64,000 nucleotides of DNA, taken from positions 558,001 through 622,000 of the forward strand of contig NZ_CP140614.1 of the NCBI RefSeq assembly GCF_036556685.1. The letters run 5' to 3'. The notes under the pieces are model-generated. The model worked only from the letters and a program-made list of their open reading frames with translations. It was not told where the DNA came from and did no database searches. Positions 17,248 to 30,892 of this stretch are shown here, piece after piece. A program made the position numbers and the translations under genes. Origin of the DNA: Sulfurospirillum sp. 1612. Lineage in GTDB: Bacteria; Campylobacterota; Campylobacteria; Campylobacterales; Sulfurospirillaceae. Each line of letters starts with the position of its first letter. Position 1 is the first letter of the stretch.

Positions 17248-17520
17248 ATGACAAAAGTTATGTCGGTAAGTCAAGTTAGAGCAGATATTTACAATGTTAT
17301 GGATGAAACGGCACAAACTCATGAACCTGTACTTATTACGGGAAAAAGAAACAATGTCGTGATGCTTTCTCAAGAAGACTGGAATGCAATAGAAGAAACA
17401 CTATATTTAAACTCTATACCAAATATGGCATCTTCAATTCAAGAATCAATGAGTGCAGATGACAGTGAGTTTAGTGAAACTGTTGAATGGCAGAGTACAA
17501 AGTACTTTATAGTACGTTAG
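17248..17520 (+). CDS. yefM: YefM/Phd-family antitoxin
   Basis: 90 aa. N-terminal Phd/YefM fold that binds DNA (SVSQVRADIYNVMDETAQTHEPVLITGKRNNVVMLSQEDWNAIEETLYL), followed by a disordered acidic C-terminal tail that would wrap the toxin. AAGGGT is the ribosome site. Its last 34 bp overlap the toxin reading frame, coupling translation. The promoter carries candidate self-operator sites. Confidence 0.9.
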   Translation: MTKVMSVSQVRADIYNVMDETAQTHEPVLITGKRNNVVMLSQEDWNAIEETLYLNSIPNMASSIQESMSADDSEFSETVEWQSTKYFIVR

Positions 17521-17753
17521 CATTAAAAGATGCCAAAAAACTATCAAGTGCATCTTTAGATAAAAAAGCAAAAGAGCTTATTGAGATCATCAAAAAAGAC
17601 CCGTTTCAAAATCCACCTCCTTATGAAAAACTAGTAGGAAATTTACAAGGTTCATATTCAAGAAGAATAAATATACAGCATCGACTGGTTTATGAAGTAA
17701 AAGAAGATAATAAAGTAATAAGAATTTCTAGAATGTGGTCGCATTATGAATAA
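17487..17753 (+). CDS. yoeB: YoeB/Txe-family mRNA interferase toxin
   Basis: 88 aa, RelE-like ribosome-dependent endoribonuclease fold. Catalytic-type residues align with E. coli YoeB: E47 in YEKLVGNL, R60 and R66 in YSRRINIQHRLVY, and the C-terminal H86-Y87. Length is typical (84-90 aa). It lies directly beside the integrase relic and integron array, a common home for toxin-antitoxin pairs. Confidence 0.9.
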   Translation: MAEYKVLYSTLALKDAKKLSSASLDKKAKELIEIIKKDPFQNPPPYEKLVGNLQGSYSRRINIQHRLVYEVKEDNKVIRISRMWSHYE

Positions 17754-17798
17754 TAGGTTATTGCCAATATCTGAGCTCTTTATGCCATATATGTGAGA

Positions 17799-17987
17799 AT
17801 ATTGTTCTACCTCTGACTTTCCCATCTGCTCAGGATGTTTTTTATCATGATACAGTATATACTGTTTTGCCCAATTAGGTATAGGCTTTTTCTGTTTTGA
17901 GACTATAGCGCTTCACTCTGATCTTATCTCGTAAAATATCAAGTAACTTTTTGTCTTTCTGCAAAATATTTTCCCTAGTTTTAATGT
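17799..17987 (-). pseudogene. intI: Integron integrase (IntI) N-terminal relic, frameshifted and truncated
   Basis: Reading the minus strand from about 17987, the frame LLDILRDKIRVKRYSLKTE-KAYT is followed, after one extra base at 17874-17877 that creates TAA, by WAKQYILYHDKKHPEQMGKSEVEQY in the next frame. Together they match the core-binding domain of integron integrases (IntI1: [49 protein letters not shown]). The catalytic domain with its Arg-His-Arg-Tyr set and the intI patch are absent; the sequence breaks off 45 bp before the yoeB stop. The gene is dead, by a 1-nt insertion plus loss of the 3' two thirds. Confidence 0.85.
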
Positions 17988-18146
17988 CTTTTTATCACAA
18001 AATTATAGCTTATTTATTAATAGAATATTAAACATAATTCATATAATGCAAACATCGCATATCATTGTATTTATAGCAAAATTAAGTGTAGCATTACTAT
18101 AATATTGGTATTAATAAATAGTTGTATGTTGCCGCTTTGCCTCAAC
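17988..18146 (+). promoter_or_regulatory. Putative attI/Pc zone between intI relic and first attC
   Basis: No coding frame is seen. It contains TATAAT at 18098-18103 pointing into the array (candidate cassette promoter Pc, no good -35), and a perfect 11-bp hairpin (18121-18131 with 18143-18153) whose left arm begins GTTGTAT, a possible attI core. By position this is where attI and Pc belong in an integron; no attI consensus exists to confirm it. Confidence 0.45.
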
Positions 18147-18309
18147 ATACAACGGTCGGACTGAGCTCTAAACGAGCCACCAACCAATTGTCGTGCTCCG
18201 CTTCGCTACACACAACAATTGGCAGGAGTCTCACACCAAGGTATCTTCAGAAAATCACAAGTGAATTTTCTGAAATATACATTAGTGAAGCTCAGCCCGA
18301 CCGTTATAT
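18147..18309 (+). repeat. attC site a, 163 nt, with nested hairpins
   Basis: R'' ATACAAC (18147-18153) and R' GTTATAT (18303-18309) pair, as do GGTCGGACTGAGCT (18154-18167) and AGCTCAGCCCGACC (18289-18302) with one mismatch. The large terminal structure holds two more hairpins: 18184-18222 (CCAATTGT/ACAATTGG arms, loop CTCCGCTTCGCTA) and 18246-18274 (13-bp stem with one extrahelical base). The site is much longer than its neighbours and of another type. No gene lies between the candidate attI and this site. Confidence 0.7.
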
Positions 18310-18324
18310 TAAAAAGGGAAATTG

Positions 18325-18735
18325 ATGACACTTTCAGACTATGCTTCAATCGCGACCATAGGAGCATTTTTAGTAACACTAATATCACTAGCATTTTCAG
18401 CAAAACGTTATTTAGATATTAGAACAAGAGAGGAAGAGGTATTTAGATTTAAAACATATCATAGGCTATTAAAGACTATCAGTAAAGGTAGCGATGAAAA
18501 TGGTATTTTAAAATTAGTAAGTCAAGTTGCATATATTTATGAACTCCGAAATTTTCCTGAGTATAAAGATTTGACAAAGAAAACTTTAAATCAATTAAGA
18601 AAAGAATGGTCACATGATGAAGCATCAGATATTAAACCATTACTAAAAGAGGCGATAGATGATACTATTTCCGTTATCGAAGCTTCTTCAAAATATAACA
18701 AAACCTGGAGACAAATAGTTTACTTTAACGGGTAA
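18325..18735 (+). CDS. Cassette gene 1: small one-helix membrane protein, unknown
   Basis: 136 aa. One N-terminal transmembrane helix (residues about 6-27: ASIATIGAFLVTLISLAFSA), then a basic, helical cytoplasmic region. The ATG at 18325 has AGGGA 5 bases upstream; a TTG at 18322 is in frame but too close. The last 12-14 codons and the stop lie inside attC b, so the integron recombination site encodes the C-terminus. No family recognised. Transcription probably comes from upstream (Pc). Confidence 0.75.
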   Translation: MTLSDYASIATIGAFLVTLISLAFSAKRYLDIRTREEEVFRFKTYHRLLKTISKGSDENGILKLVSQVAYIYELRNFPEYKDLTKKTLNQLRKEWSHDEASDIKPLLKEAIDDTISVIEASSKYNKTWRQIVYFNG

Positions 18736-18761
18736 ACTATTTCTCAAGACAACCGTTATGA
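18693..18761 (+). repeat. attC site b
   Basis: 69 nt. R'' ATATAAC (18693-18699), R' GTTATGA (18755-18761). Perfect 11-bp central stem 18713-18723 / 18732-18742 with loop TTTAACGG. Recombination would fall after G18755. The stop codon of cassette gene 1 is in the loop and right arm. Confidence 0.85.
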
Positions 18762-18785
18762 ATATAAATATTCAAGGAGATAATT

Positions 18786-19019
18786 ATGGAAAGTAAATTA
18801 AATTTAAATGCTGGTGATACACTTAAACAGACTGAACATAAAATGAAAGGTCCTATGCAGGAAACCGATATATGGACATATGAAATACTTAATCAAGATG
18901 GAGAAGTTGTTGGTTCAGTAATACACAAAGACCACACAGCAATAAAAGGTTTTCGTAGAACTCAAAGTGTAGAACAAAAAGATAGTTCAGGAAATGTTAT
19001 TGTAAGTACATCGTGGTAG
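18786..19019 (+). CDS. Cassette gene 2: 77-aa protein, unknown
   Basis: 77 aa, hydrophilic, with a beta-rich middle (IWTYEILNQDGEVVGSVIHKDHTAIKGFRRTQSVEQKDSSGNVIVSTSW) and no signal or membrane segment. AAGGAG is 6 bases before the ATG. Such short single-domain proteins of unknown role are typical integron cargo. Its 3' end lies 10 bp before attC c. Confidence 0.7.
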   Translation: MESKLNLNAGDTLKQTEHKMKGPMQETDIWTYEILNQDGEVVGSVIHKDHTAIKGFRRTQSVEQKDSSGNVIVSTSW

Positions 19020-19029
19020 TGATTAAAAT

Positions 19030-19096
19030 TCATACAAGTACTAGGAGAGAAACAAGTAGCCTAGTGGTGACTTATTTCTCAAGGTAACCGTTATGT
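19030..19096 (+). repeat. attC site c
   Basis: 67 nt. Left end degenerate (TCATACAAG in place of yAAC-AA), then ACTAGGAGA; arms 19047-19057 and 19070-19080 (11 bp, one mismatch); right end CTCAAGGTAACC and R' GTTATGT (19090-19096). Confidence 0.8.
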
Positions 19097-19128
19097 GAAC
19101 AAGAAAACTATTATATATGGAGGGAATT

Positions 19129-19587
19129 TTGGAAAAAATAGATTATGAGTATGCAGGTTTTTGGGTTAGAGTTGGAGCAACATTGATAGATGTTGCTTTA
19201 TTATTAATGATTACATTACCGTTAACATTAATGATATATGGAAGCGATACAGTATGGAATAGCGAAGATATGATTTTAGGTCCAGCGGACTTTTTAATAA
19301 ATTATTCTTTGCCATTTTTTGCAACAATAATTTTTTGGATGTATAAATCAGCTACTCCAGGCAAAATGGTTTTACACTTAAAAGTTCTTGATGAAGAAAC
19401 AGGACATAAATTAACAATAGGACAAAGTATTGGAAGATACTTTGCATATATACCTGCTATGCTAATTTTTATGCTTGGGATATTTTGGGTGGCTTGGGAT
19501 AGGAAAAAACAAGGTTGGCATGATAAATTAGCTAGAACTGTCGTTGTGAGAAATAAAAAACGAACAGAAGATGTCAAGTTCACATAA
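19129..19587 (+). CDS. Cassette gene 3: RDD-family membrane protein
   Basis: 152 aa from TTG 19129. RDD domain: YAGFWVRVGATLIDVALLL with the Arg and Asp-Asp-type acidic residue in helix 1, a second hydrophobic segment, the amphipathic SATPGKMVLHLKVLDEETGHKLTIGQSIGRYFAY, and a third helix ending in WAWDRKKQGWHDKLARTVVV. RDD proteins are three-helix membrane proteins, in some cases transport-linked. TTG is preferred because GGAGGG (19119-19124) precedes it by 4-5 bases; the upstream ATG at 19117 overlaps that site. The stop lies inside R'' of attC d. Confidence 0.82.
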   Translation: MEKIDYEYAGFWVRVGATLIDVALLLMITLPLTLMIYGSDTVWNSEDMILGPADFLINYSLPFFATIIFWMYKSATPGKMVLHLKVLDEETGHKLTIGQSIGRYFAYIPAMLIFMLGIFWVAWDRKKQGWHDKLARTVVVRNKKRTEDVKFT

Positions 19588-19649
19588 CAATTACTAGGAG
19601 ATAAATAAGTAGCCTAACGGCGACTTATTTATCAAGATAAACGTTAAAT
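19582..19649 (+). repeat. attC site d
   Basis: 68 nt. R'' ACATAAC (19582-19588), ACTAGGAGA, 11-bp perfect arms 19600-19610 and 19623-19633 with loop AGCCTAACGGCG, right end TCAAGATAAAC, R' GTTAAAT (19643-19649). The cleanest site and a good template for the array's consensus. Confidence 0.88.
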
Positions 19650-19666
19650 GAAAAAGGAAACTTAAA

Positions 19667-19858
19667 ATGTCAAAAACATATAGATTGTTTATCAGTCATT
19701 CATGGGCATATGGAGATGCATATGACAAGGTAGTAAATATGATAACAAGCCAAGGAATTAAATTTTATGATCATTCTGTCCCACGCCATGACCCAATTCA
19801 TACAAATTGAACAGATAAACCACTATTTGGTATAACAAAAACTAGGAAAGAAATATGA
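19667..19858 (+). pseudogene. Cassette gene 4: TIR-like (MTH538/ThsB-like) gene, truncated
   Basis: An open frame of 47 codons (19667-19810) starts RLFISHSWAYGDAYDKVV and ends SVPRHDPIHTN, then TGA. This is the N-terminus of the TIR-like domain once called DUF1863/MTH538, the fold of Thoeris ThsB and related signalling proteins (family motifs FISHSW and the SVP...DPIHTNG stretch). The codon after IHTN should be Gly (GGA); here it is TGA, and reading through gives TDKPLFGI, as the family continues, before the frame ends inside attC e. So the gene has both a nonsense change and a 3' truncation at the recombination site. Full-length relatives are about 130-200 aa. Confidence 0.7.
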
Positions 19859-19900
19859 AGCCAAAGTGCGGCTTCATATTTTTCAAGACACCCGTTAGGT
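19830..19900 (+). repeat. attC site e
   Basis: 71 nt. R'' GTATAAC (19830-19836), AAACTAGGAAAG, perfect 12-bp arms 19851-19862 and 19870-19881 (AAATATGAAGCC), loop AAAGTGC, right end TTCAAGACACCC, R' GTTAGGT (19894-19900). Confidence 0.87.
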
Positions 19901-19913
19901 AATAAGGGAACAA

Positions 19914-20606
19914 ATGCATAATATCGAAGATAATATAATGAATTTTTTTCAGCAGTTAATTAGTGATGAAAATCATAGATACAAATCATGGGAACATTGT
20001 TTTTTGTATTTTTCACAAGATGTTAATCAAATTGACAAAGAAATAGCTTGTTTACATCTATCATTTTATCTTGCAAGTTGGGGTATGTATAGAGGTTCAA
20101 GTTTTCTTCTATGGCAAGATTATCTGATTCATGATAAAGTTGTTGAAGAGATATTAAAGTATAAACATCTGCAAAATATTGATTTTGATAATTTTGATGT
20201 AAAAGATAAAAATTTTAAAGATATTTTTGAGTTATCAAATTTTATAGAAAATTGGTATCCATCCAATATTAAAAATATTCCAGAGAAACCTGACAAAGTT
20301 ATTAATGTGACAGACACTTTATTAACTAAAATTTTATTGGGAACGCTTGGTTGTATTCCTGCATATGATAGATTTTTTAAAGATGGATTAAAAATAAAAA
20401 ATATACAACCATATACTAAATTATCAAAAAAAAGTTTTTTAGAAGTAGTTAAATTTTATCAAGAAAATAAAAATGACTTTTTAATAGTTCAAGAAAACAT
20501 TGAGGAGAAAATTCGAATAAAATACCCTATAATGAAATTGGTTGATATGTATTTCTTTACTCTAAGTTTTGCATCATATAACAAATCATTGGAGAGAAAT
20601 ATTTGA
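19914..20606 (+). CDS. Cassette gene 5a: conserved hypothetical protein
   Basis: 230 aa, soluble, no signal. The segment HLSFYLASWGMYRGSSFLLWQDYLIHDKVVEEIL (about residues 45-78) has the look of a conserved, little-studied family in which a helical core with SWGMYRGS recurs; I know no function. The C-terminal helix-rich part includes LGTLGCIPAYDRFFKDGLK. It starts ATG 14 bp after attC e and overlaps the next gene by 4 bp (TTGA), so the two form one translationally coupled unit in one cassette. Confidence 0.75.
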   Translation: MHNIEDNIMNFFQQLISDENHRYKSWEHCFLYFSQDVNQIDKEIACLHLSFYLASWGMYRGSSFLLWQDYLIHDKVVEEILKYKHLQNIDFDNFDVKDKNFKDIFELSNFIENWYPSNIKNIPEKPDKVINVTDTLLTKILLGTLGCIPAYDRFFKDGLKIKNIQPYTKLSKKSFLEVVKFYQENKNDFLIVQENIEEKIRIKYPIMKLVDMYFFTLSFASYNKSLERNI

Positions 20607-21508
20607 AAGAAGATGAACTTATAGAAAACTTTACAGATATTATTCAACCAAATATTGATGATATAAAAAATATGATTAATAGTACAAACAACAAACTGTT
20701 TACCCTTAATTCCATTCTATTTATCATAGTTCTCGGTGCACTCTTTTTAACTAACCATTTTAACTTACACATTATATTTTTTATTATGACATTATTTATT
20801 TCAGTAATGATTTCTTATCTAGGAAATTATACATTTAACTATGAATATCATGATATTTTAGAAAGAACTATTTTCCCAAAAATTTTAAATATTTTAGTCA
20901 AAGATGGAAGTTTTACTATTAATACACATTTAGAAGAAGATGCTAAAAATTCAGATATTTTTTCTATATATGAATATTTCATTGCTTCTGCAACTATTCA
21001 AAGTAAATGGTCTATCCAATTTGCTTTGAATAACAGGCAGATACATATTTCTTCTACTTATATTGATTTATCAGACATCAATAATCCAGCAGTACCCTTT
21101 TCAGATAAAAACAAAGGTTTATTTATAACTATTGAAAATATTGACTTTTGTAATTCAGAAATTTATATTTTTGAAAATAAATTATTACATTCTATGAAAG
21201 AAGTTTCAAAAATATTAAAAAAAGATTTGACTAATGATAATTCTTTATATGATAAATTTACAGTTGTATCAAAAACCTTAAACAAAGAGTCCAAAAACAA
21301 GATAGTTCAAATACTAAACTTGTTTAATCAAGATGTGTCAATTACACTGAGAAAAAATAAAATGTATATATTTGTACACAAAGAGTTTACTTGTTTTGAT
21401 GCAAATTATTATACAAATGGTAGAATACCTAGTTATTTTGATTATATTGAACTTTTAAAAATTAAAAATTCAATTGAAGAGGTTATAGCAATAACTAAAG
21501 AAGTTTAA
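20603..21508 (+). CDS. Cassette gene 5b: membrane protein, DUF3137-like
   Basis: 301 aa with two adjacent N-terminal transmembrane helices (about 33-50 and 54-72) and a large cytosolic domain. The order 'ILKDGSFTINTHL ... YEYFIASATIQ... FSDKNKGLFITIENIDF ... ILKKDLTNDNSLYDKFTVVSKTLNKESKNKIVQILN ... MYIFVHKEFTCFD' recalls DUF3137 proteins; the assignment is moderate. TTG start with GGAGAG 6-7 bases upstream. The stop lies inside attC f. The partner is the gene just upstream; together they occupy the array's only clear two-gene cassette apart from mazEF. Confidence 0.7.
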   Translation: MKEDELIENFTDIIQPNIDDIKNMINSTNNKLFTLNSILFIIVLGALFLTNHFNLHIIFFIMTLFISVMISYLGNYTFNYEYHDILERTIFPKILNILVKDGSFTINTHLEEDAKNSDIFSIYEYFIASATIQSKWSIQFALNNRQIHISSTYIDLSDINNPAVPFSDKNKGLFITIENIDFCNSEIYIFENKLLHSMKEVSKILKKDLTNDNSLYDKFTVVSKTLNKESKNKIVQILNLFNQDVSITLRKNKMYIFVHKEFTCFDANYYTNGRIPSYFDYIELLKIKNSIEEVIAITKEV

Positions 21509-21569
21509 CAAAACATAGTAGCTAATAAATTATCTAGCGGCAATTATTAGCTATCTTCAGTCGTTAAAC
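21503..21569 (+). repeat. attC site f
   Basis: 67 nt. R'' GTTTAAC (21503-21509), R' GTTAAAC (21563-21569), fully complementary. Arms TAGCTAATAA-A-TT and AATTATTAGCTA pair with one extrahelical base, the feature integrases use to choose the strand. Its first 21 bases (21504-21524) recur exactly in site i at 25518-25538. Confidence 0.85.
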
Positions 21570-21586
21570 ACACAAAAGGGTTAAAA

Positions 21587-22498
21587 TTGAAAAATAAATT
21601 TACTTTATATATAAAAATATTTCTCTTCATATTTTTTATATTTTCTAACGGATATGCAAAAAGCAATACAAATTCACCGAACAATGAACTTGAAATTTTT
21701 AAAGCAATCGATTCAAAAGATTATGAAAAAATTAATAATCTTTTAAAAAATGGAGTAAGCCCTTGTTTAAAAAGAGAGAAAAAATATGAAACATATACAA
21801 ATGTAGATTTTGCTTTTAATCATGCAATTATCACAGGTGATATCAAAATTGTAAAATCTTTTTTACCATATATTGAAAATATCACAAAACCTTCTTGTTT
21901 ATATAATCCTTCTCTCTTTTATGCGATCAAAAATGATGATGTCAAAATGATCCAATTTTTAATAGATAGTGGAGCTGATGTTAATTTTCCAACTAAACTA
22001 TATAGAAAAGAGACACCTATTCAAGAAGCATTATTAGAAAGAAAAATACATTCTGCTCAGAAACTCATAGATAATGGTGCGAGTATAGATAAAAATATAG
22101 GTTTTCAATCATTAGAACTTGCCATAAAAAATTTAAATATTAAAGTTGTACAATTTTTAATTGATAACAAATATGATGTAAACTTTCAAAATAAAGACGG
22201 AAATACTATACTACATCTCATGGCGATGGGGATCGTAGAAAAAAATTTACAAAGTATCGAAACATATATTGAGAAAAAAGAATATATTAAACGATTCCCT
22301 GATACTTATGTAAAAGCTCAAGAACAGGTAAAAAGACTAAAAACTAATTTTAAAAATTATTCTAAAATAGCGAAACTTCTGTTACAAAACGGAGCCGATA
22401 CTAAACTAAAAAATAATGCTGGTAAAACACCATTAATGATTGCCAATGAAAACAATACCGATACAATGCTTGAAGTTTTAAAAAATGCAAAACAATAA
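21587..22498 (+). CDS. Cassette gene 6: secreted ankyrin-repeat protein
   Basis: 303 aa. TTG start 7 bases after AAGGG. A hydrophobic signal sequence (residues 4-24, ending NGYAK) targets it for export. Then ankyrin-type repeats: about residues 36-58, 108-135 (MIQFLIDSGADVN), 142-165 (SAQKLIDNGASID), 175-205 (VVQFLIDNKYDVNFQNKDGNTILHLMA) and 260-295 (IAKLLLQNGADTKLKNNAGKTPLMIA), with a helical insert between the last two. Ankyrin repeats mediate protein binding; a periplasmic partner is unknown. Confidence 0.85.
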   Translation: MKNKFTLYIKIFLFIFFIFSNGYAKSNTNSPNNELEIFKAIDSKDYEKINNLLKNGVSPCLKREKKYETYTNVDFAFNHAIITGDIKIVKSFLPYIENITKPSCLYNPSLFYAIKNDDVKMIQFLIDSGADVNFPTKLYRKETPIQEALLERKIHSAQKLIDNGASIDKNIGFQSLELAIKNLNIKVVQFLIDNKYDVNFQNKDGNTILHLMAMGIVEKNLQSIETYIEKKEYIKRFPDTYVKAQEQVKRLKTNFKNYSKIAKLLLQNGADTKLKNNAGKTPLMIANENNTDTMLEVLKNAKQ

Positions 22499-22509
22499 AT
22501 ACATAAAAT

Positions 22510-22579
22510 GTCTAACAAAAACGAGGAGACCAATAATTTACCCTAGCGGGAAAATTATTGCTCACGATAAACGTTATCT
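22510..22579 (+). repeat. attC site g
   Basis: 70 nt. R'' GTCTAAC (22510-22516), AAAACGAGGAGA, arms 22531-22543 and 22548-22560 (13 bp, one A-A mismatch), loop TAGC, right end CTCACGATAAAC, R' GTTATCT (22573-22579). Confidence 0.87.
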
Positions 22580-22592
22580 AATCAAATACAAA

Positions 22593-22621
22593 TTGACATC
22601 CCAATGTAATTACAATATAAT
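22593..22621 (+). promoter_or_regulatory. Internal cassette promoter and operator of mazEF
   Basis: TTGACA (22593-22598), 17-bp spacer, TATAAT (22616-22621): exact consensus. The spacer holds the perfect palindrome TGTAATTACA (22605-22614), and ATAATTACA repeats over the -10, a likely MazE-MazF autoregulatory site. AAGGAG follows for mazE. Confidence 0.8.
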
Positions 22622-22639
22622 TACACAAAGGAGTTTATT

Positions 22640-22900
22640 ATGACAACACTTACAAAGATTGGAAACTCACAAGGAATTAGAATTCCTAAACCATTAATAC
22701 AACAAGCACACCTTGAAAATGTAAATTTAGAACTAGAAGTTTTAGAAAATGGTTTATTAATAAAACCAATAAATAATACAGATAGAAGCACATGGAAAGA
22801 AAATATTGAAAAAGTTATTTCTAATCATAAAGGAGTTGAAGACGAAGGTGTTTTAGATGACTTACTTAATGATAATGACTTGGAAGACTGGCAATGGTAG
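22640..22900 (+). CDS. mazE: MazE/AbrB-type antitoxin
   Basis: 86 aa. N-terminal swapped-hairpin AbrB/MazE DNA-binding fold (MTTLTKIGNSQGIRIPKPLIQQAHLENVNLELEVLENGLLIKPI) and an acidic C-terminal tail that would block the toxin. The TAG stop overlaps the mazF start by 7 bp. It has its own consensus promoter, so it is expressed regardless of cassette position. Confidence 0.9.
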   Translation: MTTLTKIGNSQGIRIPKPLIQQAHLENVNLELEVLENGLLIKPINNTDRSTWKENIEKVISNHKGVEDEGVLDDLLNDNDLEDWQW

Positions 22901-23220
22901 TAGATATCAAAAGGTTTGAAATACACTTGGTAAAGTTAAATCCTACAGTTGGTTCTGAAATTCAAAAAACAAGGCCATGCATTGTAGTTTCTCCAAACGA
23001 GATGAATGTTTTAAAAACCGTAATAGTTGCACCTATGACCTCTAAAGGTTTTGATTTTATATTTAGACCCAAAATAAAGTTTGACAAGAAAGATGGATTA
23101 GTGTTACTAGATCAGATTAGAACAGTTGATAAAACAAGACTTGTAAAAAAGCTTGGAGATGTTGATACAGCAACATCAAAAGAAATTTCAAAAATGCTTA
23201 TTAATATGTTTGAATTGTAA
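22894..23220 (+). CDS. mazF: MazF/PemK-family mRNA interferase
   Basis: 108 aa endoribonuclease toxin. Hallmarks: VKLNPTVGSEIQKTRPCIVVSPNEMN (catalytic Arg in TRP), VIVAPMTSKG (catalytic Thr), and DGLVLLDQIRTVDKTRL. Length is normal (about 105-115 aa). Together with mazE it may stabilise the array against loss. Confidence 0.92.
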   Translation: MVVDIKRFEIHLVKLNPTVGSEIQKTRPCIVVSPNEMNVLKTVIVAPMTSKGFDFIFRPKIKFDKKDGLVLLDQIRTVDKTRLVKKLGDVDTATSKEISKMLINMFEL

Positions 23221-23510
23221 TCAAATGATAGAAAATATGATATATTACAAAGCGTTCAGTTTAAAACAAAATATACTCAAGAAAATGAAACCGTAAAAAG
23301 CTAAAACAAAAAGGACTTAATGAATATTTTGATACAATGACATCTTTACAGCAAAGAGATAAAAGCATAAAAGAAGCGGTGCAGGGTGGCTATAAGCAAA
23401 GTGAAATCGCAGAGTTTTTGCAACTCTCAGGAACAACGATATCTAAAATTATGGCAAAGCTTAGTCCATGAAAAATAGGTTATTCCCAATACCTAACCCC
23501 TTTTTTATTA
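23221..23510. other. Scrambled stretch between mazF and partial attC h
   Basis: No intact gene. 23254-23297 has a TTTAAAAC ... ACTCAAG ... ACCGTA order faintly like a worn attC; 23301-23471 is a transposase-tail relic; and 23475-23494 repeats, with 18 of 20 bases, a stretch just after yoeB (17753-17772). Confidence 0.4.
23301..23471 (+). pseudogene. Tail of a REP-associated (Y1) transposase, relic
   Basis: An open frame ending SLQQRDKSIKEAVQGGY..QSEIAEFLQLSGTTISKIMAKL-SP resembles the helix-turn-helix tail found at the end of RAYT/Y1 transposases (RDxAIxEAxxxGxYxxxEIAxHxGLHxSTVSRIV). Nothing of the HUH nuclease domain (HxH and Tyr) is present upstream. A small stand-alone DNA-binding ORF from ATG 23337 (44 aa) is possible but less likely. 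Confidence 0.5.
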
Positions 23511-23530
23511 GCTCATTTTAACCGTTAAAC
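23511..23530 (+). repeat. attC site h, right half only
   Basis: GCTCATTTTAACC-GTTAAAC keeps the right-end pattern and R' (23524-23530). ACCTAAC (23491-23497) could be an R'' remnant, but no arms lie between, so the left half was lost, probably with the event that left the transposase tail. Confidence 0.55.
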
Positions 23531-23552
23531 CAACACAAAGGAATATAGTAAA

Positions 23553-25522
23553 TTGCAAAGATCTTATTACTCCAATACAATTAGTAAATTTATTACAGAG
23601 AATACAAACACAATTCTTGGTGAACTAGCACGACATCACAATCATGCCTTAGAGGATTTACAAAGAAATGCATGGATAAAACAAATTGATATATTAAAAC
23701 AAGCATTTTACAATTATAAAGATGGTCATATTTTCTTTGAATTTGCAATTCCTAGAATGGGAAAGCGTGTTGATAATATTATAATTATTAATGATTCAAT
23801 ATTTGTTATTGAATTTAAAGTTGGTTCAACAACATATGACAATAATGCGATAGAGCAAGTTATAGACTACTCACAAGACTTAAAAAACTTTCATGAAGGT
23901 AGTCATACTCAAAAATTATTTCCCATACTTATTGCAACTGAAGCAAAAAGTTTTGAAAGTAAAATTGAGCCATTACAAGATAAATTATATAAACCTCTTT
24001 TTGCAAATAAAAACTCTATTTTAAGCACAATAGAAGAATGTCTAAAGTTAGAACGAGTAGATAATATAGATCCGTTAATATGGGAAAACTCAATCTATAA
24101 ACCAACTCCAACTATTATTGAAGCAGCTCAAGCATTATATAAAGGTCATAATGTTAAAGAGATTTCTAGATCAGATTCTGGTGCTATAAATTTGTCTATT
24201 ACAACAGATAAAATTAACCAAATTATAAATAGTTAGAAACAAATAAGAAATCAATTTGTTTTATTACAGGGGTTCCAGGTGCAGGCAAAACACTAGCAGG
24301 CTTAAATATTGCAAATGAAAGGATGAATATTGATGAAAACGAACATGCAGTTTTCTTATCAGGAAATGGTCCACTAGTTGATGTATTAAGAGAAGCTCTC
24401 ACAAGGGACGAAGTTAATAATGCAAAAAAGAAAGGGCAAAAGCTAACAAAAAGAGAGGCTGCAATTAAAACACATGCTTTTATTCAAAATATTCACCATT
24501 TTCGCGATGACTCATTAGGTACAGCTAAAGCACCAATTGAAAAAGTAGTAGTATTTGATGAAGCTCAAAGAGCTTGGAATCAAGGGCAAACAAGCTCTTT
24601 TATGAAAAGAAGAAGAGGACTAGATAATTTTGAGTCATCAGAACCAAGATTCTTAATTGATGTAATGAATAGACATCAAGACTGGTCTACAATCATTTGT
24701 TTAGTAGGTGGCGGACAAGAGATAAATACTGGTGAGGCAGGATTAGAAGAATGGATTAGTTCGTTAAAAAATCATTTTCATGACTGGAATATATATTTAT
24801 CAAATTCGATAATAGAAGATAAAAACTATTTGAAAGATAATGCATTAAAAGAGTGGTTACACGAAAATGCCACTATAGATAAAAACTTACACTTATCCGT
24901 TTCAGTTAGATCTTTTCGCTCAGAGAAGCTATCCGACTTTATTCACTCTATTTTAGATATTGACACAACAAAGGCTAGACGTTTATATAATGACTTTTTA
25001 AAAAATGATTATCCTATATTGGTTACAAGAGATTTTGAAAAAGCAAAAAAATGGTTAAAATCAAAAGCAATTGGAAGTGAAAGAAGTGGTGTAGTTGCAT
25101 CATCTGGAGCATATCGTTTAAGGCCATTTGGGATAAATATAAAAAATCAGATTGATGCTCCCGTTTGGTTTTTAAACAATAAAGATGATATTAGATCTTC
25201 GTATTTCAATGAAGAAGTGGCAACTGAATTTGACATTCAAGGACTTGAACTTGATTGGACATGTGTATGTTGGGATGGAGACTTTTATTTTCACAACAAC
25301 CAATGGATGTTTAGAAAATTCAAGGGTACAAAATGGCAAAATATAAATAAAGAGATCATAAAAAATTATTTATTGAATGCTTATAGAGTTTTACTTACGA
25401 GAGCCAGACAAGGGATGATTATATTTATACCTAATGGATCATTAGATGACCAAACAAGGTTACCAGAATTTTATGATGAAACCTATGAATATATTAGGAA
25501 GATCGGTATACAAGAGCTTTAA
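23553..25522 (+). pseudogene. Cassette gene 8: nuclease-helicase (PD-(D/E)XK + DUF2075), frameshifted
   Basis: Two adjoining frames make one protein of about 655 aa. Frame 1 (TTG 23553 to TAG 24236, 227 aa) holds a PD-(D/E)XK-type site: Asp in GKRVDNIIII and E-x-K in VIEFKVG. Frame 2 resumes at 24237 with KKSICFITGVPGAGKT (Walker A), then VVVFDEAQRAW (Walker B), a GGGQEINTGE segment and a C-terminal LLTRARQGMIIFIP motif VI: a DUF2075 (schlafen group-3-like) helicase core. One missing base near 24233-24237 splits them and the Walker A precedes the next ATG (24323), so no active fusion is made unless the frame shifts. Similar architectures act in phage defence (Nhi-type, from memory). Confidence 0.8.
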
Positions 25523-25568
25523 CAAAACATAGTAGCTACTATCTATCTCAAAAGTAGAACCGTTGATG
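25517..25568 (+). repeat. attC site i, terminal and degenerate
   Basis: Left end CTTTAAC plus AAAACATAGTAGCTA is identical to site f over 21 bases; the middle is only a TAGTAGCTACTA palindrome, and the right end CTCAAAAGTAGAACC-GTTGATG is worn. It marks the array's distal edge. From 25569 to 25637 I see no gene, only a minus-strand open stretch of about 30 codons with no start. Confidence 0.55.
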
Positions 25569-25637
25569 TTCCCAAATATATCAATAAAACTCATAGCCTC
25601 ATGATAATCTTTGATAAGTTCATCGATACATAAAAAA

Positions 25638-26504
25638 TCAAGCTGCTTTGGTCTTTTTTATTTGTGAATAGCCATTGACAAAAATCGCCGAAACGACAAA
25701 TGCGCCACCGATAAGTGTGCTGCTAGGGACTACTTCTCCTATAAAAAGCCAGAGCCAGACGGGAGCTAGTGTGGTTTCTACCGTAGAGAAGATGCCAACT
25801 TCAGCAGAGCTTATATATTTTGTAGCCCCATAGATAAAATACATTGCGACAACTTGCATCATGCCCATCAAAAAGAGCCAGAAAATGCTCATAAGCGGTA
25901 TGTCAAAGGGATTTTTTGCTATGAAGCCCATGACCGTCATCAAAAAAAATCCACTCAATGAGATGAGTAAGTAATGAGAAAAATGAGGAAATTTTCTCAG
26001 AAGCGTAAGCTGAAGCCCCATTGCCACAGCTAAAAGAATACCCAAAAAATCACCAAGCAAATTTCCCCCAAGATTGACAGAGTTTTGCACGATGAGAAAT
26101 ACTCCAAAAAAAGATAAAAAGATGGCTAAAAGGGTCTCTTTCTTCACTTTTTCTTTTAAAATAAAATATGAAAAGATAGCGGCAAAAAAAGAGGAGGTTG
26201 CCAAAAGAACGACGGTATTAGCGGCGATTGTGTATTTTACTGAAAATACAAACAAAGAAGTACCAATTCCCGATATCAAAGAGATGCAAATGATAATAAA
26301 GATGCTTTTTTTATCTTTAGGGATCACATCTTTTTTGCCTTTTATGAGCATGAAAGAAAACATGATTAAGCCCATAAAAAGACCTCTATAAAAAGAGATG
26401 ATAGAAGCATCTGTGTTGGCCAACCGGACAAGAAGCGCATCAAAACTTATAATTCCAACACCAAAAGCGGCAAAAAACATGCCTTTTAATCTAGTATTTA
26501 ACAT
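25638..26504 (-). CDS. DMT-superfamily (EamA) permease
   Basis: 288 aa, ten predicted transmembrane helices in two EamA repeats (each ending with the typical LKEKV / IGEVVPSSTLIGGAFVV pattern). Likely a metabolite exporter or importer; substrate cannot be read from sequence. It ends about 70 bp from the integron's last attC and faces it, so it probably marks the original chromosomal border. Confidence 0.88.
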   Translation of the reverse strand: MLNTRLKGMFFAAFGVGIISFDALLVRLANTDASIISFYRGLFMGLIMFSFMLIKGKKDVIPKDKKSIFIIICISLISGIGTSLFVFSVKYTIAANTVVLLATSSFFAAIFSYFILKEKVKKETLLAIFLSFFGVFLIVQNSVNLGGNLLGDFLGILLAVAMGLQLTLLRKFPHFSHYLLISLSGFFLMTVMGFIAKNPFDIPLMSIFWLFLMGMMQVVAMYFIYGATKYISSAEVGIFSTVETTLAPVWLWLFIGEVVPSSTLIGGAFVVSAIFVNGYSQIKKTKAA

Positions 26505-28193: not shown

Positions 28194-28201
28194 GACCCTT
28201 G

Positions 28202-30892
28202 ATGAATATCGACAAATACTTAATATTGATCAACGATAAGGATAAAACACAAGAGATTGAGAAGATTGATGTTGAAGCAAACAAAATAAAAATTAAATAC
28301 ACTACGAACAATAAAATCTATTTATACAATAAACACAAGGTTTCAATACTACAAGATCCTAAGCCAATTGATCCTAATGCTTATTTGATTTATTTAGGAG
28401 AGGTGTGTTTGTTTAATATTTCTAAAATATTAGATTTTAAAACTCATCTGAGAATCTTTCATGATAATGGGAAAGTTTTTACTTACAATAAAGCGAATCT
28501 ACGTTTTGAAAAAAATGCTCTTATGTATGTAAATACAAAAAATACACTGCTATATTTAAAAGAATTGGCTAAAAGTATAAAAAATGAAGAGAATGATTTT
28601 TTAGATAAGCAATATGAAAAGATTGATTATATTAGCGAAGATAGTATCTTTGCAAAATATTTACGACGTGAACCTATCCAAAAAAATAATTTTAATCGGG
28701 TAAAAATATTTCCATTTGGATTGAATTTGAGTCAAGAGATGGCGGTAAATCAGGCATTGACGAACCAAATGAGCATTATCGAGGGACCACCAGGCACAGG
28801 AAAAACTCAAACTATTTTGAATATCATTGCAAATTTAATGATGAATAATAACACAGTTGCTGTTGTTTCCAACAATAACGCAGCCATTCAAAATATTTTT
28901 GATAAGTTAGATGCCAAAGATTTATCTTTTTTTACGGCGATGCTCGGCAATAAAGATAATCAAGAAGCTTTTTTTCTAAATCAAAATGAAGATTATCCTA
29001 AAATGCAAAATATTTCTAAAACAGATTTCGTTCTTGAGCAAAAAAAGCTTGAAGAGGATATCGAACATATAAAAACTTTATTACATGCTCACAATCAGCT
29101 TGCAAAACTCTCGCAAGAATTAGATTCTCTGCTAATAGAACAAAAATATTTTATGAGATTGTATACCCTCAAAGCTATTAGTATTGATGATGAGCAGTAT
29201 TTTCTAAATTACACTTTAGAAGAGATAATATCATTCTGGGCTGACTTGGAAGATTTGCAAAGTCAAAACAAAACAGTCAATCTTTTTTTTAAAATCAAGG
29301 CTATATGGAAATATAGACTATTTCATTTTTCTATTTATTCGCATCCTATAGATGATATTATTATATTTTTACAAAAATGTTTTTATATTATTAGAGCAAG
29401 GACGTTAAACAAGGAGATTTTAGAATTAAAAAACCTTTTGAAGAATTCTAACTTTGAAGCGCTACTCGAACAACATAGAACGAAATCAATGGCATTATTT
29501 AAGTCATATTTATCGAAAAGATATGATTATAAAATGAAAAGAACAAGATTTGATAGTGATATTTTGTGGAAAGATTTCAATAGCTTTATCAAAGAATATC
29601 CCGTGATTTTAAGTACGACACATTCTTTGAAAAATTGTACAGGAAAAAATTTTTTATACGATTATCTGATTATAGATGAAGCGTCACAGGTTGATATTGT
29701 TGCCGGTGGACTTGCCTTGTCTTGTGCCCGAAATGTTGTTGTTGTTGGTGATTTAAAGCAACTGCCTCATATCATACCTCGTGAATTAAAAAATCAGATT
29801 GACAGTATTTTTGATCATTATTCTTTAAATCCCTCCTATCATTACGCAAACAATTTACTTTTATCTGTTTCAAAATTATTTAATGAAGTGCCAAGAACAT
29901 TGTTAAAAGAGCACTATAGGTGCCATCCAAAAATTATAGATTTTTGTAATAAGAAATTTTATAATAACGAGTTAATTATCCTAACAAAAGATACAAAGAA
30001 GACGTCTTCGCCTCTGATTTTATATAATACAGCAGAGGGAAATCATGCGAGGGGAAAATATAATCAGCGTCAAATTGATATTATTAAAAACGAAATATTA
30101 ACACGTTTACATGTTGATAGTTTGGGAATTATTTCGCCTTTTCGCAAGCAAATCGATAAATTATGCGAAGAAATTAATCAAAACGCAAATATCGAAATTG
30201 ATACAGTGCACAAATACCAAGGAAGAGAAAAAGATGTGATTATTATCACAACAGTTGTTGATCAGGAAAACGAGTTTGCCGATGATCCAAATTTGCTAAA
30301 TGTAGCTATTTCAAGAGCGAAAGATCAACTTTATGTTGTCATATCTGATGATCAAAAAAATAAAAATATGAAAGATTTGGTTTCTTATATAAAATATAAT
30401 AATTTTGAGATCAAACAAAGTAAAATTTACTCTATATTTGATCTACTATATCAGAGTTATGCTCCCGTTTTGACAAAGTATCGCTCTAAAATAAAAAATA
30501 TTTCTAAATACAAATCAGAAAATTTGATGAATATTATAATCGAAAATATATTGAATAATGAGCATTATAATTATTTGGACAAAGTTCTTAATTTCCCGTT
30601 GAATCATTTAATCCAAGATACCAGTATCTTAAATGAAAAGGAATTGAAATTTGTACAAAATCCTTTAACTCATATAGATTTTTTGATATATAATAAAATC
30701 TGCAAAGAAGCTGTACTGGCGGTCGAAGTAGATGGCGTTGCTTTTCATGAAAATAATCCCATCCAGTTAGAAAGGGATAAATTAAAAGATCTCATTTTAG
30801 AAAAATATAATATTCCAATGATACGATTTGCCACCAATGGCAGTGAAGAGGAAAAAAAATTACTTCGCAAGTTACAAGAGATAAATGCTTAA
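28202..30892 (+). CDS. SF1 (Upf1/Dna2-like) helicase with C-terminal nuclease-like domain
   Basis: 896 aa. AAA_11/AAA_12-type helicase: motif I EGPPGTGKTQTI (about 196), a helical insertion of about 250 residues, motif II YLIIDEASQVD (about 498), motif III VVVGDLKQLP, and motif VI LNVAISRAKDQLYVVIS (about 695). The last about 110 residues (HIDFLIYN..AVLAVEVDGVAFHEN..QLERDKLKD..YNIPMIRF) look like the Vsr/DUF2726-type PD-(D/E)XK fold. The start is ATG 28202 (AGGA 6 bases upstream), 8 bp after the DUF2779 stop. Acts on DNA or RNA; pairing with a two-domain nuclease suggests a defence or repair unit. Confidence 0.88.
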   Translation: MNIDKYLILINDKDKTQEIEKIDVEANKIKIKYTTNNKIYLYNKHKVSILQDPKPIDPNAYLIYLGEVCLFNISKILDFKTHLRIFHDNGKVFTYNKANLRFEKNALMYVNTKNTLLYLKELAKSIKNEENDFLDKQYEKIDYISEDSIFAKYLRREPIQKNNFNRVKIFPFGLNLSQEMAVNQALTNQMSIIEGPPGTGKTQTILNIIANLMMNNNTVAVVSNNNAAIQNIFDKLDAKDLSFFTAMLGNKDNQEAFFLNQNEDYPKMQNISKTDFVLEQKKLEEDIEHIKTLLHAHNQLAKLSQELDSLLIEQKYFMRLYTLKAISIDDEQYFLNYTLEEIISFWADLEDLQSQNKTVNLFFKIKAIWKYRLFHFSIYSHPIDDIIIFLQKCFYIIRARTLNKEILELKNLLKNSNFEALLEQHRTKSMALFKSYLSKRYDYKMKRTRFDSDILWKDFNSFIKEYPVILSTTHSLKNCTGKNFLYDYLIIDEASQVDIVAGGLALSCARNVVVVGDLKQLPHIIPRELKNQIDSIFDHYSLNPSYHYANNLLLSVSKLFNEVPRTLLKEHYRCHPKIIDFCNKKFYNNELIILTKDTKKTSSPLILYNTAEGNHARGKYNQRQIDIIKNEILTRLHVDSLGIISPFRKQIDKLCEEINQNANIEIDTVHKYQGREKDVIIITTVVDQENEFADDPNLLNVAISRAKDQLYVVISDDQKNKNMKDLVSYIKYNNFEIKQSKIYSIFDLLYQSYAPVLTKYRSKIKNISKYKSENLMNIIIENILNNEHYNYLDKVLNFPLNHLIQDTSILNEKELKFVQNPLTHIDFLIYNKICKEAVLAVEVDGVAFHENNPIQLERDKLKDLILEKYNIPMIRFATNGSEEEKKLLRKLQEINA

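Follow-up and report, generated by a model that had tools for sequence, protein, structure and literature searches.

Analysis of a decayed chromosomal integron of Sulfurospirillum and of its first cassette, a gene-less, self-complementary unit probably widespread in the Campylobacterales

Bacteria shuffle gene cassettes mainly by means of integrons, which have been studied mostly in Vibrio, Xanthomonas and the clinical class 1 elements. Their integrase, IntI, uses the folded bottom strand of the attC recombination site, and selection on that fold is well established. Among these sites, the VCR-type attC of Vibrio cholerae is long and has a large terminal structure. We have analyzed a stretch of 64,000 nucleotides of Sulfurospirillum sp. 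1612, a member of the Campylobacterota (contig NZ_CP140614.1, positions 558,001 to 622,000; this whole stretch is the window from here on, and all positions are counted from its first letter), the genome being a single contig of 2.38 Mb. An AT-rich array spans 17.8-25.6 kb of the window, with a G+C content of 28.3% (18307-25566) against 36.7% for the window as a whole. This array belongs to a sedentary chromosomal integron whose integrase has been lost. Integrons of this phylum were already known; what is new here is the first cassette, s1, as a cassette without a gene, together with two families of such units, A (to which s1 belongs) and B.

The array has in common with the described sedentary chromosomal integrons and clusters of attC sites lacking integron-integrases (CALIN) the single orientation of the cassettes, homogeneous attC sites, intI on the opposite strand and an attI with a promoter. 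It differs in that just a remnant of intI is left, the attI is recognisable and a gene-less self-complementary cassette comes first. With six attC sites found by a covariance model (R2, below) and no IntI above the cut-off, it classifies as a CALIN. Excerpts of the literature describe intI pseudogenes as common in integrons (PMC2426708), mention epsilonproteobacterial (PMC2426708) and Campylobacterota integrons (PMC8618304), and place In0 or CALIN in Sulfurovum and Sulfurimonas (a table of PMC10295459). The 11 taxon attC models of PMC8352920, in its excerpt, exclude Campylobacterota and epsilonproteobacteria, and the main text of the IntegronFinder 2.0 paper (PMC9024848) contains neither the word campylobacter nor epsilon. 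A first-pass annotation of this DNA had supposed that integrons were rarely reported from the phylum and that the array and its cargo might be undescribed; on the latter point, a search of the open-licence PMC literature (subscription papers and preprints lie outside it) gave, in the extracts of the matches listed, nothing on attC-only or dumbbell-shaped cassettes or on the attC and attI of Campylobacterota. Gene-less cassettes of Vibrio and oral integrons (PMC11014356, PMC6557892) are similar to s1 in having no gene and, some of them, in standing first, but in the available excerpts they are studied as promoters, and no conserved, multi-copy, fully folding family is described there. The sRNA-Xcc1 cassette of Xanthomonas (PMC12444791, excerpt) is also a cassette-borne non-coding sequence spread among species; unlike A and B, whose searched copies gave no Rfam match, it moves together with symE and points in the direction opposite to the array.

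We consider it likely that this is an integron in decay, of a type found throughout the Campylobacterales, and that its first cassette comes from a widespread, gene-less and self-complementary family and was placed there by IntI. The minus-strand IntI fragment seen in the first-pass annotation was recovered by tblastn with the IntI of a relative of the same genus (G213) as two blocks in different frames, residues 2-27 and 30-54, with 69% and 56% identity and a combined E of 5e-15. Its DNA is 70-76% alike to the intI starts of relatives. About 53 codons remain, split over two frames, and therefore the integron is not functional as it stands. In the rest of this genome no IntI was found above the cut-off, the four partial matches (best 55 bits) belonging to two genes for recombinases, 366 and 378 codons long. 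A toxin-antitoxin pair of the YefM/YoeB type (17248-17753, plus strand; Phd/YefM 6.7e-16, YoeB 2.9e-12) is located at the expected place of the missing intI.

The attI lies between the IntI remnant and the array, with the cassettes running away from the remnant, as expected in order and orientation. In intI-bearing loci of relatives, attI has at the crossover the form TATAATGTTCnTTGAATAAATA-GTTA (the hyphen marks the junction), in most cases some 260 bp away from the start of intI. The motif was found in 77 of 99 intI loci; 66 were readable as attI and 62 of them had at least 36 nt behind. A TATAAT-like box is located 16-22 nt upstream of the junction in many of these sites. The attI of the window is the same form with one extra spacing base, and the pattern used at up to 3 mismatches misses it in this genome. 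Together with the attC sites described next, this bears out the earlier identification of a chromosomal integron, the genome being one of the Campylobacterales.

Six complete attC sites (s2-s7, each 66-70 nt) were found on the plus strand, with R''/R' and L boxes, an imperfect folded stem and covariation. A first covariance model, R1, was built from these six (standard pairs in 83.3% of the pair cells, 75.0% when shuffled). A second one, R2, was built from 76 sites of other genomes (20 regions plus locus L017) with the window sites excluded; 89.0% of its pair cells were standard against 74.2% when shuffled, in an alignment fitted to the model, and 13 of 21 pairs showed two-sided changes among these sites of relatives. 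The covariance search of the array region proposed in the first-pass annotation gave, with R2 over 18 kb and without filters, 49.7-76 bits for s2-s7 (E 4e-9 to 3e-15), and the lack of significant sites that would have refuted the annotation was thus not observed. That annotation had counted nine sites. Six of them stand, s8 and s9 are degenerate, and s1 is different in kind, a separate cassette without gene, which had been overlooked; R2 does not recognise it (10 bits, on the minus strand). The consensus proposed for the complete sites is visible by eye in s2-s5 and s7, s6 being a looser fit. When each of the nine features was folded as DNA and compared with 200 dinucleotide shuffles, z was between -2.0 and -5.6 for s2-s7, and -8.0 (top strand) and -10.6 (bottom strand) for s1 (18150-18306). 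The values for s8 (-0.9 and -1.8) and s9 (0.35 and 0.26) were not significant.

R1 sites were present beside intI in all of 20 array-side regions, from 20 other genomes of five families (a few of these intI genes were interrupted by a stop or cut). With R2, 42 matches were obtained in named intI loci, spread over 18 of the 80 searched, many of whose contigs are short on the array side. Judging by these sequences, the site type is common to the order and not particular to this genome, against the attC type of its own that had been claimed for it. IntI was above the curated cut-off of NCBIfam TIGR02249 in 60 of 398 Campylobacterales genomes and at E <= 1e-20 in 95, some of the latter looking like ordinary recombinases. 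A phylum-wide sample had IntI in 5 of 121 genomes at E <= 1e-40, indicating that integrons are concentrated in some families. A scan of named genomes with the G213 IntI confirmed 117 stretches, of which 80 loci were kept, labelled mostly Sulfurimonas, Sulfurovum, Sulfurospirillum, Campylobacterales, Campylobacteraceae, Helicobacteraceae and Arcobacter. From this spread, the array of the window belongs to an order-wide integron type.

The cassette s1 is complete, with about 182 bp and no gene. It starts at the attI crossover with a 5' hairpin (18121-18153; 15-nt arms, two mismatches), followed by a branched attC-like stem of 155 bp (18151-18305), with the arms of the hairpin continuing the R' and R'' boxes. 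The cores are AAC/GTT, 13 of 14 arm positions are complementary, and the predicted bottom-strand fold covaries at the sequence level, all of them properties of an attC. Like the VCR-type attC, family A is long with a large terminal structure, but it exceeds the latter in length, with 154-162 nt from R'' to R', and is branched, the remainder of the cassette being a 5' hairpin into which the R boxes continue. A DNA search with 18118-18310 found the family in 26 of the 398 genomes at E <= 0.01, with a best E below 1e-7 in 11 (the genome of the window counted). Further copies were gathered by nhmmer, and the 20 full ones that we aligned share the hairpin from the crossover G, arms of 13-14 nt (for example GGTCGCGCTGAGC / GCTCAGCGCGACC), the inner hairpins and the next G-TT, the unit being 183-193 nt as aligned. 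None of the six frames was free of stops across the 20 full copies, each read from its own start. Four copies (L173, L174, L181 and L182) have a GAT/ATC core instead of GTT/AAC.

Family B (about 155 nt, arms GGGGGCGCGGGT / ACCCGCGCCCCC) was found by a scan for such arms and is present in 29 of the 398 genomes at E <= 1e-5. The genome searches scored at most two candidates per genome for A and B (at most five for IntI), hence copy numbers are lower bounds; besides, several contigs end inside A or B, concealing copies. A scan for the architecture alone over 1.51 Mb of fetched loci, including those fetched for likeness to A or B, gave 49 matches, 46 of them A or B, and 0 in one mononucleotide shuffle. 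With 4 duplicate loci left out, the upstream junctions of A (30 rows) were 12 attI, 5 attC, 2 B, 3 truncated and 8 without assignment by script, of which 3 (L006, L070 and L115) are attI variants by eye. Those of B (34 rows) were 21 attC, 10 attI, 1 A, 1 without assignment and 1 truncated. In four further regions of single-contig genomes (L183, L185, L187 and L188) B likewise stands at attI motifs, and the stretches fetched there contain no match to IntI. One genome, G365, contains at least 12 copies of B in 12 different contexts, in arrays that the record places about 1.5 Mb from each other. Nine of them are letter-identical over 154 nt and the others differ from these at 1-3 positions, whereas any two of the twelve show 11-58 differences in the 73 bases upstream, and differences downstream as well, indicating that one sequence entered twelve contexts. 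In the same way, no difference was found over 187 nt among the A copies of G365 and those of L070, of which one stands at attI and the other follows an attC. Such identical copies appear to be direct traces of recent copying into integron junctions.

Both families fold better as bottom strand. In consensus folds made separately for each strand, A gave -104.7 kcal/mol for the bottom and -81.1 for the top (14 of 18 copies, the 4 with a GAT start being left out), and B -81.7 and -44.8 (20 copies). The bottom fold of A has 73 pairs, 30 with two-sided Watson-Crick changes; that of B has 56 and 25. G-U outnumbered A-C cells in these folds by 80 to 3 (A) and 101 to 1 (B), the fold itself having been chosen to favour G-U. 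In the stricter test, with the folds of the top strand, A-C was still above G-U, 20 to 9 (A) and 15 to 1 (B). Single copies folded as DNA were more stable as bottom strand in all those of A (18) and of B (20) that were folded, and in 64 of 76 normal attC sites; the latter, over a fixed set of pairs, had 71 A-C and 35 G-U cells, the same lean. Wobble pairs on the bottom strand are the pattern expected from selection on a folded bottom strand.

We read A and B as putative attC-only mobile cassettes moved by IntI. Cassettes would have entered at attI (18121) through recombination between this site and the attC of the cassette, folded as bottom strand, by an IntI that was formerly local or supplied in trans; this activity is deduced from the sequence. 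An array of about eight gene cassettes would have grown behind the attI promoter, before intI and several cassettes decayed. The first cassette would be a unit of 182 bp consisting of attC alone, foldable over its whole single strand according to prediction and covariation. A and B may be unusually good substrates of IntI, leaving from one strand, persisting on the other through replication and re-entering at attI or behind an attC. They would thereby multiply inside integrons while carrying no gene; we infer the excision, the copying route and the lack of benefit to the host. Thus, tentatively and with somewhat less than an even chance of being right, we propose that Campylobacterota integrons host gene-less, attC-only "dumbbell" parasites (at least families A and B) that exploit IntI to multiply and jump between integrons. 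Just as tentative is the part of this proposal by which these cassettes are selected for complete folding as a bottom single strand. Selfish copying accounts for their multiplicity, identity, small size, junction specificity and lean towards live intI. Regarding the latter, hairpin cassettes were found at 17 of 62 attI sites beside intI and at 2 of 37 without intI (Fisher p 0.008), a difference that is supporting only, as the two sets were drawn differently. The former came from the 99 intI loci, the latter were chosen from a motif scan after dropping 4 chance-like sites, 1 duplicate and loci with pieces of intI, and the background was 12 of 2047 sampled GTT positions.

Several points weigh against these interpretations. 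The A copy of the window, beside a dead intI, is the sole one found in its genome. Sequence conservation in the loops and inner segments of both families goes beyond the need of a bare attC, which speaks for some added function and could reflect an RNA or protein-binding role. The wobble asymmetry would fit an antisense RNA equally well, and the copies are related by descent, so that counts of pair cells are not independent events. The upstream junction was not assignable for 5 of 27 A and 1 of 33 B copies with intact start. R2 was seeded through R1, and hence through the sites of the window, and is not wholly independent, a concern eased by the location of its training sites where the array is expected, upstream of intI.

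The conserved loops also favour the strongest of the alternatives, that A and B are regulatory or RNA cassettes serving the host. Transcription from the attI promoter would make them a structured leader or a small RNA, stabilising or tuning the transcript of the array; alternatively, the other strand would give an antisense RNA. The TATAAT-like box before the junction would put an element in first position at the 5' end of the transcript, and regulatory gene-less cassettes have been published (PMC11014356 and PMC6557892, excerpts). However, the top strand folds worse than the bottom one in 38 of 38 copies and has more A-C mismatches than G-U pairs in the sense direction, many copies are inside arrays, distant from attI, and the elements are rarer at attI sites without intI. 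As for a known structured RNA, no Rfam family matched the copies searched, of A (window and four loci) or of B (three loci). There was none at gathering scores in the window and, at E <= 1, none in 17700-25700 either, three sub-threshold matches being all outside these copies. Overall we regard a regulatory role as unlikely.

Still less probable is that they are promoter cassettes driving the following gene, as gene-less cassettes do in Vibrio. A and B do precede the next cassette, and promoter activity is common in the Vibrio ones according to the excerpt of PMC11014356. On the other hand, no convincing promoter or terminator was visible by pattern in s1: the window copy has one promoter-like match, and 3 were found in a 451-bp region against 1.9 expected by chance. 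The same excerpt (PMC11014356) describes the promoters of such cassettes as not predictable in silico, which makes this weak evidence. Besides, B and A of G365 have a G+C of 56.5% and 48.1% in loci of 30.4%.

An s1 left behind as the attC of a cassette that lost its gene by deletion would suit an array that is clearly decaying, but this is very improbable, as a unit of nearly constant length and with no frame open in all copies is met again at the attI and attC junctions of other genera. Finally, the sites of the array, although palindromic and repeated, can hardly be ordinary REP-like elements scattered over the genome, the refutation that the first-pass annotation had foreseen, since relatives have theirs beside intI and the genome searches with R1 (E up to 1; best 150 of 689 first-look candidates scored) and R2 (E up to 5; best 150 of 1316) each listed 7 places, the six sites of the array and one weak mirror, and no comparable place elsewhere.

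These results provide a parts list for a little-described branch of integrons: an IntI clade, an attI consensus and an attC model. A and B would invert the idea of a cassette, being a cassette that is nothing more than its recombination site. If they are parasites, integrons would possess their own MITEs (miniature inverted-repeat transposable elements), and the dumbbell cassettes would allow a direct measurement of which attC folds favour copying most, and could mark active integrons in uncultured bacteria. To our knowledge, they would then be the smallest non-autonomous integron elements. If they are regulatory, Campylobacterota arrays would carry interchangeable control modules.

Table 1. 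Features of the integron locus (positions within the window).
Feature	Position	Strand	Evidence
intI remnant, residues 2-54 in two frames, remaining gene missing	17799-17958	-	tblastn vs same-genus IntI (G213)
attI with -10-like box TATAAT 18098-18103, crossover G 18121	18098-18123	+	form of relatives' attI
Gene-less cassette s1, family A	18121-18305	+	nhmmer profile 171.6 bits; homologues; fold; architecture scan
Cassette gene 1, unknown protein, TTG start	18322-18735	+	ORF; no Pfam/NCBIfam family above cut-off
attC s2	18692-18760	+	R2 65.1 bits, E 1.1e-12
Cassette gene 2, unknown, 77 aa	18786-19019	+	ORF; no family above cut-off
attC s3	19026-19094	+	R2 49.7 bits, E 3.8e-9
Cassette gene 3, RDD-family membrane protein	19117-19587	+	Pfam RDD E 7.4e-26
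attC s4	19581-19647	+	R2 73.8 bits, E 1.1e-14
Cassette gene 4, start of TIR-domain protein, truncated by stop	19667-19810	+	59% identity over 43 residues to annotated TIR-domain protein
attC s5	19829-19898	+	R2 60.2 bits, E 1.5e-11
Cassette gene 5a, unknown	19914-20606	+	ORF; no family above cut-off
Cassette gene 5b, unknown, TTG start	20603-21508	+	ORF; no family above cut-off; no plasmid match
attC s6	21501-21568	+	R2 50.9 bits, E 2.1e-9
Cassette gene 6, ankyrin-repeat protein	21587-22498	+	Pfam Ank_2 E 3.7e-33
attC s7	22508-22577	+	R2 76 bits, E 3.2e-15
Cassette 7, MazE-like antitoxin and MazF/PemK toxin	22640-23220	+	Pfam MazE_antitoxin 4.3e-7, PemK_toxin 2.5e-28
Degenerate attC s8	23470-23530	+	3' end alone recognisable, by eye; no R2 listing
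Cassette 8, Schlafen-group-3 helicase, candidate defence family PDC-S41	23553-25522	+	SLFN-g3_helicase 6.4e-70
Degenerate attC s9, array end	25516-25571	+	R2 10.4 bits, E 4.7

The cargo is listed in Table 1; four of its proteins (1, 2, 5a and 5b) had no Pfam or NCBIfam family above the cut-off, and cassette gene 4 had no Pfam match and no relevant PDB match. Cassette 8 is broken into two frames near 24236, its halves scoring 278.6 and 609.9 bits with PDC-S41. The presence of intact and broken cassettes alongside the intI remnant indicates decay of the locus. A weak R2 match (20575-20658, plus strand; 21.4 bits, E 0.013) is located at the boundary of genes 5a and 5b; it is perhaps a worn attC, the two genes having once been separate cassettes. 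By eye, 17749-17775, beside the break of intI, resembles the left part of s8 (23471-23497) over about 25 bases (AATAGGTTATT-CCAATA-CT).

In other genomes, R1 or R2 gave matches of 128-135 nt instead of the usual 66-70 in L046, L047, L078, L092, L101, L128, L169 and L172, possibly a third length class of attC. Shortened B elements were seen in L041 (near attI) and L241. Further types of hairpin stand at attI in L014 and L203; that of L014 has a GGT/ACC core and is possibly a third family of attC-only cassettes. A and B were not found in plasmids, nor A in phages (the phage search covered A), and exact-match scans of viral contigs gave 0 for the left arm of B, the right arm of A and attI. A 17-base piece of B occurs in 7 viral contigs, where the other arm is absent and the B profile has no match. 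Two of the 80 loci from the scan of named genomes come from Methylococcales sponge symbionts (L138 and L139). Their IntI shares 63% identity with the Campylobacterota clade and their attI has the form described above, yet R2 listed no attC there at E <= 0.001; a transfer between phyla is possible.

The attI motif with a -10 box, often several per genome, was found also in genomes without intI. At up to 3 mismatches it was present in 109 of the 398 genomes, against 10 for a control with the reversed pattern (a few hits, such as those in L193, L195, L197 and L217, look like chance), and 64 of the 109 had no IntI of at least 90 bits (hand-copied lists). R2 found attC sites in 11 of 20 intI-less attI loci (L222-L241). 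The spacer between intI and attI is retained in L222, L225 and L226, and in L237 and L240 attI is apparently directly behind a host gene. These orphan loci of attI, promoter and cassettes may be relics or domesticated promoter sites. As for the surroundings of the array, its EamA neighbour had no close orthologue in 9 other genomes of the genus (nothing above 31% identity), and the synteny of the array was not obtainable that way. Outside the array but near to it, a helicase-like protein (28199-30892, plus strand) shows part-likeness to the MkoA/MkoC defence models, with 170.8 bits at best.

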